The notes under the pieces were generated by a model. It was given only the letters and a program-made list of their open reading frames with translations. It had not been told where the DNA came from and did not search any database. A stretch of 37,926 nucleotides of DNA from Pseudanabaena mucicola FACHB-723 (GTDB lineage Bacteria > Cyanobacteriota > Cyanobacteriia > Pseudanabaenales > Pseudanabaenaceae), in the NCBI RefSeq assembly GCF_014696385.1, contig NZ_JACJQB010000034.1:1-37926 (forward strand), read 5' to 3'. The position numbers were made by a program, and so were the translations under genes. Numbering within the stretch: the stretch's first letter is position 1; each line of letters begins with the position of its first letter. Below, in pieces: positions 25,056-26,765 of the stretch.

Positions 25056-26765
25056 TTATTTGCCAACAATCCAATTGCGGCGAAAGAAACGGGCGAGATC
25101 TGATTCATCTATCGCCAAACAGATGGGGCGACCATGAGGGCAAGTATGGGGATTACGAGTTTGTTGCCATTGCCAGAGCAAATCGCGAATTGTATTTAAA
25201 TCTAATTTTGTACCGTTACGAATCGCAGTCCGACAGGCAGCAGTAGCTCTCGCCATAGTCGGATCATCCTGTTGACTCATCTCTTGCAAAATCACCGCAC
25301 AATCTTCATATCCAATTAAAAGTTCTGGGAGCGATCGCACTGCCCAAAGTCCATGCCCAAAGGCTTCTATATCTAGCCCCAATGCTTGCAAACGCTCTAC
25401 TCCATCCTGAGCAATATTCTTTAATAAAATTGGCTGCTTAATCGCAACAATCTGCCACTGCATTTCAATTTTTTCAAAGAGAACCCGCTCATGGGCAACA
25501 TGCTGTTCGACCAACCACAAACCGCCAGCATGTTCCGCCAAAATATAAGTGTCTAAAACCTGTGCGATCGCCTTTAATGAAGCATTAGTCTGATTAAAAT
25601 TTTCGCGCTTTGCAGGAATTAAATAGGAGGTTTTCCGTTCCGCCGCTCTCAATAAATCATTGGTGACGCTCGTATAAACGCCAGCACTGGGTTCAGGGAT
25701 TTTTAAAGCTGCTGTAATGCTATCTTTGATTATTGTTTGGATTTCCCCAAGATCCTGAATATAGGCTTCAGCCTTGGCAGGGTGACGATTCCAATCAATG
25801 CGATCGCAGCGCAAGTTCAAATTCACAATACATACAGGAAAGCGATTACGCGGTAAAGTTCTCTCTAGACTCGTCAGAATCGTCTGCTCTAATTCAGGGA
25901 AATTAATCATTCTGCCATTGAGAACTATTTTCACCCAATCAGGACGACGACGGGATAGGTGATCGGGCAGCCCCAGAGTGATGGATATCCCCTCACCCCC
26001 AGCCTCTCTCCCTGACTGGGAGAGGGGAGTAATAGTCTTGCCCCCCTTCTCCCCTAATGGGAGAAGGGGTTGGGAGATGAGGGCAAATTCTTTAAACACC
26101 AAATCATAAGGCTGAATTGCACTAACAATCTGCGGCAAAATTTCACTAGCATTTTCCCCAGCCCAAATCGTCATCCATTCCTTCCCATCCAGATGCACCT
26201 GCCAATTAACTTGCGGATTTGCGATCGCAATTTGGTGAATCTGTAACTGCACCTTGCGAACCTGCTGCGAAATGCTCGGCAAGGATTGCAAACGATTGGG
26301 ATAGCGTGCAAATAAATTGCGAACTGAGACAATCGTTCCCACTGCAATCGCCACAACTTTAGGACTGTTAGGTAAATTGCCATGCTGATCATAGTTAGCC
26401 TGATAGCCCACTGGCTCTAACCTTGGGCGGCTACAAATACTCAAATCAGCAAGCTGGGCAAGACTATAGAGCGCTTCCCCCCGAAAGCCTAAACTCTGAA
26501 TCTGCTGTAAATCTGCAGCATCATTAATTTTACTGGTTGTGTGCGGTGTCGCAGACTGCGCCAAATCGTCGATCGCCATGCCGCTGCCATTATCACTCAC
26601 CTGTACAGATAGCGTATCTGTCGAGATTGTTATGACAATTCTATTTGCCTTCGCATCAATGGCATTTTCGGACAGCTCTCGCACCACTGCCGCCAAGGAG
26701 TCAATCACCTCACCTGCGGCGATGAGATGCACAACTTCAATAGGCAATGTGTGGATATTTTGCAT
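25056..26765 (-). CDS. mutL: DNA mismatch repair protein MutL, with an in-frame repeat insertion
   Basis: This 569-residue MutL has the GHKL ATPase motifs LIAAGEV, ELSENAIDA, DNGSGM, TTSKI and GFRGEAL. The C-terminal dimerisation/endonuclease part carries EQHVAHERVLFE (a DQHAxxExxxxE variant with Asp to Glu and Ala to Val), ACRTAIRNG and CPHGRP. It couples mismatch recognition by MutS to strand excision. Between the S5-fold strands, before LGLPDHLSRRRPDWVKI, about 30 extra residues (PLLPLGEKGGKTITPLSQSG...) are encoded by a double-hairpin DNA repeat. ATG at 26765 gives the family N-terminus (MQNIHTLP); the longer frame to 26825 adds an unrelated 20 residues. The pseudo-ATPase gene lies 35 bp upstream. 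Confidence 0.92.
   Translation of the reverse strand: MQNIHTLPIEVVHLIAAGEVIDSLAAVVRELSENAIDAKANRIVITISTDTLSVQVSDNGSGMAIDDLAQSATPHTTSKINDAADLQQIQSLGFRGEALYSLAQLADLSICSRPRLEPVGYQANYDQHGNLPNSPKVVAIAVGTIVSVRNLFARYPNRLQSLPSISQQVRKVQLQIHQIAIANPQVNWQVHLDGKEWMTIWAGENASEILPQIVSAIQPYDLVFKEFALISQPLLPLGEKGGKTITPLSQSGREAGGEGISITLGLPDHLSRRRPDWVKIVLNGRMINFPELEQTILTSLERTLPRNRFPVCIVNLNLRCDRIDWNRHPAKAEAYIQDLGEIQTIIKDSITAALKIPEPSAGVYTSVTNDLLRAAERKTSYLIPAKRENFNQTNASLKAIAQVLDTYILAEHAGGLWLVEQHVAHERVLFEKIEMQWQIVAIKQPILLKNIAQDGVERLQALGLDIEAFGHGLWAVRSLPELLIGYEDCAVILQEMSQQDDPTMARATAACRTAIRNGTKLDLNTIRDLLWQWQQTRNPHTCPHGRPICLAIDESDLARFFRRNWIVGK
25989..26083. repeat. Double-hairpin interspersed repeat inside mutL
   Basis: This 95-bp, C/G-skewed segment has outer imperfect inverted repeats (CCCCTCACCCCC on the left; GGTTGGGAGATGAGGG on the right) and two inner hairpins: CTCTCCC-TGACT-GGGAGAG and CTTCTCCC-CTAAT-GGGAGAAG. 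Its composition contrasts with the AT-leaning gene. Elements of this 'CCCTCACCCC...GGGAGAGGGG' type are known as intergenic repeats in cyanobacterial genomes; here it is open in the mutL frame. Confidence 0.85.

Follow-up and report, generated by a model that had tools for sequence, protein, structure and literature searches.

A double-hairpin interspersed repeat in frame within mutL of Pseudanabaena mucicola, and the association of its units with embedded DUF559 nuclease domains

Introduction

Palindromic repeats within protein-coding genes are already known from the Rickettsia palindromic elements (RPEs) and from REPs, and small dispersed repeats of Nostoc were described previously. The mutL gene of Pseudanabaena mucicola FACHB-723 contains a repeat of this general kind, which raises the questions of how a hairpin-forming stretch of DNA came to lie in an open coding frame, whether the peptide that it encodes matters, and what moves its relatives about the genome. 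The window, the whole stretch of 37,926 nucleotides that was analysed, is one contig (C28) of a draft genome of 3.96 Mb, which consists of 94 contigs and is 99.57% complete. A sequence-only reading of the window had placed an interspersed double hairpin in frame in mutL at 25989-26083 and had likened it to the Rickettsia elements. The explanation that we favour, with a probability of about 0.8, is that an interspersed, non-autonomous hairpin element entered mutL in frame within Pseudanabaena and is predicted to form a loop of about 30 residues in the transducer domain.

The mutL gene and its insert

The mutL gene occupies positions 25056..26765 of the minus strand, with its ATG at 26765; the list of open reading frames places the start upstream of this, at TTG 26825. 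The in-frame interruption leaves a full-length MutL, which scores 724 bits against a cut-off of 391 with the NCBIfam model NF000951 and has ATPase, transducer-type and C-terminal domains (Pfam). It contains the motif QHVAHERVLFE, which we take to be part of the MutL endonuclease site. Close MutL sequences are found on nine named contigs, eight from Pseudanabaena and one from an uncultured cyanobacterium.

The element (25990..26083) is an inverted dimer of palindromic units of 45 and 48 bp, with the ends CCCTCA.../...TGAGGG. The first, A-type unit (25990..26034, plus strand) consists of CCCTCACCCCCAGCC followed by a hairpin and scores 58.7 bits with the covariance model described below, of which it is itself a member. 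The second, B-type unit (26036..26083, minus strand) consists of CCCTCATC followed by the CCCCTTCTCCC hairpin and, standing outside the model, scores 31.8 bits. The window otherwise holds only weaker matches to the model, on the opposite strands of these same two units. The earlier description of a hairpin repeat in frame inside mutL is borne out by the two units, by an outer inverted repeat that is indeed imperfect (16 nt, 75% complementary) and by a frame that is free of stops across the whole insert; the element lies where that description put it, with the span of the two units corrected to 25990-26083.

Compared with the empty site of three congeners, the gene has gained a net 30 codons (25989..26078, minus strand; boundaries ambiguous by a few bases), in agreement with the roughly 30 added residues that had been proposed. 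One end of the insert is ambiguous because the native codons GCC CTC (26079..26084, minus strand, in the sense direction) at the junction are identical to the element's own outer end, an identity that suits either target choice or microhomology. By inspection, the mutL copy ends with its hairpins, outside which there are no terminal inverted repeats; a possible target-site duplication amounts to three bases, ATC, at most. In Rfam the element's best match reached 22.9 bits, well short of the gathering score of 44.

On the mutL-sense strand the element is predicted to fold into two hairpins with a closing outer stem (-58.5 kcal/mol, z -3.89) and on the plus strand into a single long rod (-61.2 kcal/mol, z -5.09), both for a 104-base stretch compared with shuffles. 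In the protein, the insert would form a loop of about 30 residues that joins two strands of the transducer domain; the strands predicted on either side of it are 224-229 and 258-264 (AlphaFold, 10 close sequences; at a mean pLDDT of 37 a hint only). That the model is too poor to place the loop reliably counts against the favoured explanation. The loop itself has the look of a tolerant one.

The repeat family in the genome

A covariance model was built from 16 A-type units of the same genome, the first mutL unit included; B-type halves were excluded from it and from the corresponding profile because they aligned out of register. The model finds at least 77 unit matches at at least 55 sites, the unit being a palindrome of about 43 bp. 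A search with a 151-bp query gave 22 further matches at 20 further sites of the genome, a single site being matched on both strands in one case (L008/L013) and as two halves in another (L006/L021). Both searches confirm the interspersed nature that had been ascribed to the element.

Among paired sites, 21 have the order '+-', none '-+' and one '++', with one of the '+-' sites (on contig C42) being a palindrome scored on both strands. The two units of a pair are mostly 1 to 21 bp apart, and in one case 79. A polarity as fixed as this points to the inverted dimer as a unit of dispersal. The family has the build of REPs and REPINs, that is, a short palindromic unit in many copies, as singles and as inverted dimers. 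The unit consensus is CCCTCACCCC...AAGA, with a few bases of uncertainty at its ends. Sixty stretches of a viral collection (L345-L404) also contain the hairpin core, CCCCTCTCCC-N5-GGGAGAGGGG, as an exact match.

Copies inside other genes

A site was counted as intragenic when an open frame extended for at least 100 codons on either side of the unit. Seventeen of the 55 listed sites are intragenic by this rule, which the other 38 fail; such elements had been described as usually intergenic, and many copies in this genome are not. The hosts, assigned with Pfam and NCBIfam, include MutL, MnmE, LeuS, CobN, PriA and CobB, a UvrD-type helicase, a GH94 enzyme, a hydantoinase and a group-1 glycosyltransferase; restriction genes host five of the 17 sites (two on contig C11 and three on C9), and one host frame has only a weak kinase match, below the cut-off. 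The CobN host (L005) had been a candidate for a magnesium chelatase (ChlH), which was ruled out by its NCBIfam assignment. In the GH94 and CobB genes the unit lies between two Pfam domains, as expected for tolerated inserts. By inspection, eight of the 17 in-gene copies are read in the same frame as in mutL (A/V/T-L-T/I), and several frames are used.

One further frame among the 17 (L020; G000:C34, about 108562-110703) is no clean case and is not put down as a recJ insertion: its N-terminus is HsdR-like, its C-terminus belongs to RecJ, and the repeats lie in between. It may represent a repeat-mediated rearrangement or an assembly chimera.

Across the genus the same loops are variable. The CobN loop, for which 20 of 25 loci gave an alignment row, holds the family in 11 rows, of which two show an additional unit in tandem, and by inspection other hairpin-like or other sequence in nine. 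The other hairpin-like sequences, with peptides like PPTPLAKGGE, occur in other species (L294-L296, L300-L302, L306, L307). The MnmE loop (rows from 14 of 24 loci) contains dimers, units in tandem, one unit alone or no unit at all. In LeuS the unit is present, in part decayed, in 15 of 25 genes and a different loop sequence in 10, the 26th genome having yielded no full gene. Two LeuS proteins (L237, G005:C25; L238, G020:C1) are longer than that of P. mucicola by 133 and 145 residues, the extra length being an in-frame insert near residue 685 in which no hairpin peptide is visible.

Neither a transposition event nor a clear duplication of the target site is seen at the in-gene copies, which counts against the favoured explanation. 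In-frame copies in several unrelated genes, for which insert-free genes are known, are the pattern that characterizes RPEs, and the parallel drawn with them is apt.

The mutL site across Pseudanabaena

MutL was obtained from all 26 genomes of the genus, and the forms of the site were classed by inspection. The long form is present in five (L024-L028), a decayed long form in two (L033, L034), a short single-hairpin form in seven (L029-L032, L036, L037 and the slightly shorter L039), a degenerate form in three (L035, L038, L040) and a segment without visible similarity in six (L041-L043, L044, L045, L053). The site is empty in three (L047-L049; genomes G006, G017 and G014). The idea of an insertion, for which relatives all sharing a segment of similar length unrelated to genomic repeats would have been damaging, withstands this comparison, since three of the 26 are empty and the insert matches repeats of its own genome. 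The supposition that MutL of relatives runs through this point without interruption is true of these three; in the remaining 23 the point is occupied by a segment that is long, short, decayed or unrelated.

On a MutL tree built without the insert columns, with nine weak branches among its 24 inner ones and a long outgroup, the empty state requires three changes, all of them forced by starred branches, the long state four, three of them forced, and the short state six, four of them forced. Taken jointly, all labels are clustered on this tree (14 changes against 18.4; as low in one of 200 shuffles). Taken singly, the empty, long and short labels are not clustered beyond shuffles, values as low being reached in 500, 137 and 257 of 500, respectively. 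For L031, the nearest sequence in the right 50-codon flank is L030 (0.027), but over the whole left and whole right flanks it is L027. Allele exchange thus accounts for part of the patchiness of the site, and the number of true mutL insertions is therefore uncertain.

A reading compatible with the favoured one is that there were one or two old insertions, and that the patchwork arose by deletion and interspecies recombination of mutL rather than by repeated insertion. We hold this to be a serious possibility, at somewhat less than even odds. The local recombination seen in L031 and the lack of clustering of the single labels speak for it, as does the fact that the inserts of L024-L027 share the same layout and have diverged about as much as their flanks or less. 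Against it, the short form opens with an A-type unit and four of the five long forms with a B-type unit, so the short form is not a simple deletion of those; an L028-like ancestor of the short form is possible. The other hairpin-like sequences in the CobN loop of other species also argue against it. Under the favoured explanation, form and presence of the insert would shift through both gain or loss of units and exchange of alleles between species.

Selection on the insert

In the six pairs that can be formed from L024-L027, the insert differs at codon positions 1, 2 and 3 by 23, 15 and 21 changes (168 codon comparisons), whereas the flanks differ by 355, 179 and 1188 (3249 codon comparisons). 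The pairs are non-independent, and the contrast between insert and flanks is still large. On account of its far more divergent insert (0.28-0.34), L028 does not enter the count. The codon positions indicate that the flanks evolve as protein under purifying selection and that the insert does not. The pattern fits a tolerated passenger, so that the mutL insert would be tolerated DNA rather than a selected peptide, retained where a unit happens to land in a tolerant loop with an open frame. Adaptation of the unit to translation was considered and rejected: the numbers of stop-free frames are about those of dinucleotide shuffles (3.5 against 3.6 for singles and 2.1 against 1.8 for pairs).

Two results count against the favoured explanation. 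One is this ordinary number of stop-free frames. The other is that the divergence of the insert (0.117; 59 of 504 bases) is lower than that of the third positions of the flanks (0.366; 1188 of 3249), and something must therefore slow its change, be it constraint at the DNA level, gene conversion or allele exchange. This slow divergence and the strong predicted mRNA hairpins are what one would expect if the peptide or the hairpins were useful, tuned MutL function or mutL expression and were selected. Such a function is nevertheless highly improbable, considering that the insert has no excess of third-position changes and that close relatives hold empty, short and unrelated forms. With natural empty, short and long alleles among the 26 genomes, the cost of the inserts is directly testable.

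What moves the units

What moves the units is something that we infer. REPINs are said to be inverted pairs of palindromic units in their dispersed form, and reportedly depend on RAYTs and are mostly extragenic. The mutL element could be a true REP or REPIN mobilised in trans by a RAYT (a Y1/HUH transposase), which would cut single-stranded hairpins and insert them beside a short target, GCCCTC in the case of mutL. The unit and inverted-dimer build and the native GCCCTC at the junction agree with this, Y1_Tnp has matches in 44 of 58 genomes, and the mean number of units is 37.8 in genomes with Y1 and 20.8 in those without (p=0.07). We nevertheless consider it unlikely. The draft genome of P. 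mucicola has no match to Y1_Tnp (PF01797) in a search that was positive in five of 14 control genomes; three genomes without Y1 (G007, G021 and G024) have at least 55, 76 and 52 units; and the numbers of units and of Y1 matches are uncorrelated, with Spearman coefficients of -0.15 in the genus (p=0.46) and 0.19 in the 58 genomes (p=0.16). By inspection, neither a GTAG nor a CGTC tag stands at the unit ends, as far as ends uncertain by a few bases can tell. With no Y1 matches and a unit number that does not follow the Y1 number, a RAYT is not supported as mobiliser in this genome, and the mutL element is not filed as a REP because tag and RAYT were looked for and not found.

Ordinary DDE-type MITEs might instead have carried the double hairpin as cargo, the MITE in mutL having later lost its termini. 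In genome G023, 18 of the best 20 of at least 85 copies lie inside a MITE with the termini CTGATGTTACGTGGAA...TTCCACGTAACATCAG, and a target duplication, TTATATCA, is visible in one of them (L255); in P. mucicola itself, one copy (L002) has other outer termini, AGGACTTACGCA...TGTGTAAGTCCT. At least some of the spread has therefore been via other transposases. As the origin of the mutL insert this is quite improbable: by inspection, the mutL, mnmE, cobN and leuS copies in congeners lack such termini, and the differences between the outer termini make it more likely that hairpins have entered MITEs than that they are part of one. G023 contains many near-identical copies of this MITE (L245-L261, L264), with the termini CTGATGTTACGTGGAA and the double hairpin as interior.

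DUF559 nuclease domains bracketed by units

DUF559 domains occur in 47 of the 58 genomes. The loci studied are the best 71 of 96 listed matches (E <=3.1e-27; the weaker 25 have E >=2.7e-9), one locus (L134) having been dropped as a longer copy of L065. A domain was called embedded when at least 60 codons followed on each side in one frame, which is the case in 41 of the 71 and not in the other 30. All three DUF559 domains of P. mucicola lie within longer frames, of an HsdR-like (L064), a Type ISP (L063) and an MmeI-type gene (L065); L064 is among the 30 because only 36 codons follow the domain in frame. One P. mucicola domain matches a solved endonuclease-like protein, 3hrl (E 1.5e-21).

With the unit profile, one of whose 16 sequences (L016) itself flanks a DUF559 domain, 216 unit matches were found in the 71 loci and one in reversed sequences. 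Unit density per 100 bp is 0.83 at the edge of the domain and falls to 0.22, 0.10 and 0.05 in the next 100-bp bins; it is 0 to 0.081 beyond 400 bp and zero within the domain. Among the 41 embedded loci, which are non-independent since many are orthologues, both flanks carry units within 150 bp in 27, one flank does so in seven and neither in seven; for the non-embedded loci the numbers are three, two and 25 of 30. A strict hairpin finder gives hairpins on both sides in 18 of the 41, fewer than the profile, with 0.87 hairpins in a near flank of 300 bp compared with 0.065 in the 154 windows farther away. The nuclease on contig C11 is flanked by units of 60.3 and 62.4 bits, one of the two being in the 16-sequence model. 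Three embedded loci (L123, L125, L127) are without any unit.

The embedding hosts are mostly restriction-modification genes. In five genomes the orthologue of the MmeI-type gene is empty (L143-L147), with 27 residues where the P. mucicola gene has 242. In Pseudanabaena galeata, a large unit-bearing gene of plasmid pPg_02 (NZ_CP112876.1, L405), annotated as a DUF559 domain protein, shares the interval between brxC and pglZ of a BREX locus with three small genes. Nuclease domains thus stand in frame within restriction and methyltransferase genes and once inside a BREX locus. One methyltransferase (L123; G057:C1, about 51753-52067) has an intein-like insertion, with DUF559 as the likely nuclease and hairpin-type peptides near it; it alone among seven embedded proteins gave an intein splicing match, below the cut-off (19.6 against 35.8 bits; Pfam).

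A strong association is the new part of this work: in these sequences, units bracket Vsr-like DUF559 domains embedded in other genes. It supplies a concrete suspect for the hairpin mover in this genome, in which the search for a RAYT was negative. A DUF559 nuclease (Vsr-like, of the EDxHD homing type) may help the units to spread, its gene, bounded by units, being the autonomous partner; we regard this as doubtful, at well under even odds. Across the 58 genomes, in which unit counts are for some genomes lower bounds and DUF559 counts include weak matches, the two numbers are correlated (Spearman 0.49, p 1e-4). Six of the seven genomes without units (E 1e-4) lack DUF559, as do five of the 51 with units (Fisher p 7e-5); both tests ignore kinship and genome size. 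Against such a role stand the weak correlation within the genus (Spearman 0.21, n=26, p=0.30) and genome G007, with at least 55 units and no DUF559 match. At similarly low odds, hairpin units and DUF559 nuclease might form a new class of selfish element, copied in a homing-like way into open frames without splicing, chiefly of restriction-modification genes, with the mutL double hairpin as a nuclease-less derivative and the loops of repair and housekeeping genes as by-catch.

Comparison with known systems

DUF559 is described as a member of the EDxHD homing family in an intein context in PMC9403480, and a Caulobacter DUF559 protein as Vsr-like in PMC12907096; the passages considered of PMC12306157 contain nothing on DUF559. 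The inteins of PMC9403480 resemble the present loci in having the nuclease within cyanobacterial host genes, and differ in that 27 of the 41 embedded domains here have a hairpin unit on either side. Titles and abstract openings of 14 papers on DUF559 name no interspersed repeats, and one names CRISPR; subscription literature was outside the scope, and we claim no priority.

Intragenic REPs of the GTAG and CGTC super-families, according to PMC3733652, occur as singles and dimers that add 20-30 amino acids, many of them in genes of DNA synthesis and repair and some in tRNA synthetases. The Pseudanabaena units likewise lie as singles and dimers inside the open frames of such genes. They differ in that neither a GTAG nor a CGTC tag is seen and in belonging to a genome in which no Y1 was found, and the passages considered of that source make no mention of DUF559.

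RPEs, according to PMC10969869, are of about 150 bp and form ten families. The likeness to them lies in dispersed palindromes that stand in frame in unrelated genes and add peptide; the Pseudanabaena unit differs in its length of about 43 bp, its richness in C and G, its occurrence as a single or an inverted dimer, its reading in several frames and its bracketing of DUF559 domains. The mutL element behaves like the protein-coding palindromes, both RPEs and intragenic REPs, and in mutL, leuS, mnmE, priA and cobN such palindromes are now documented in a free-living cyanobacterium.
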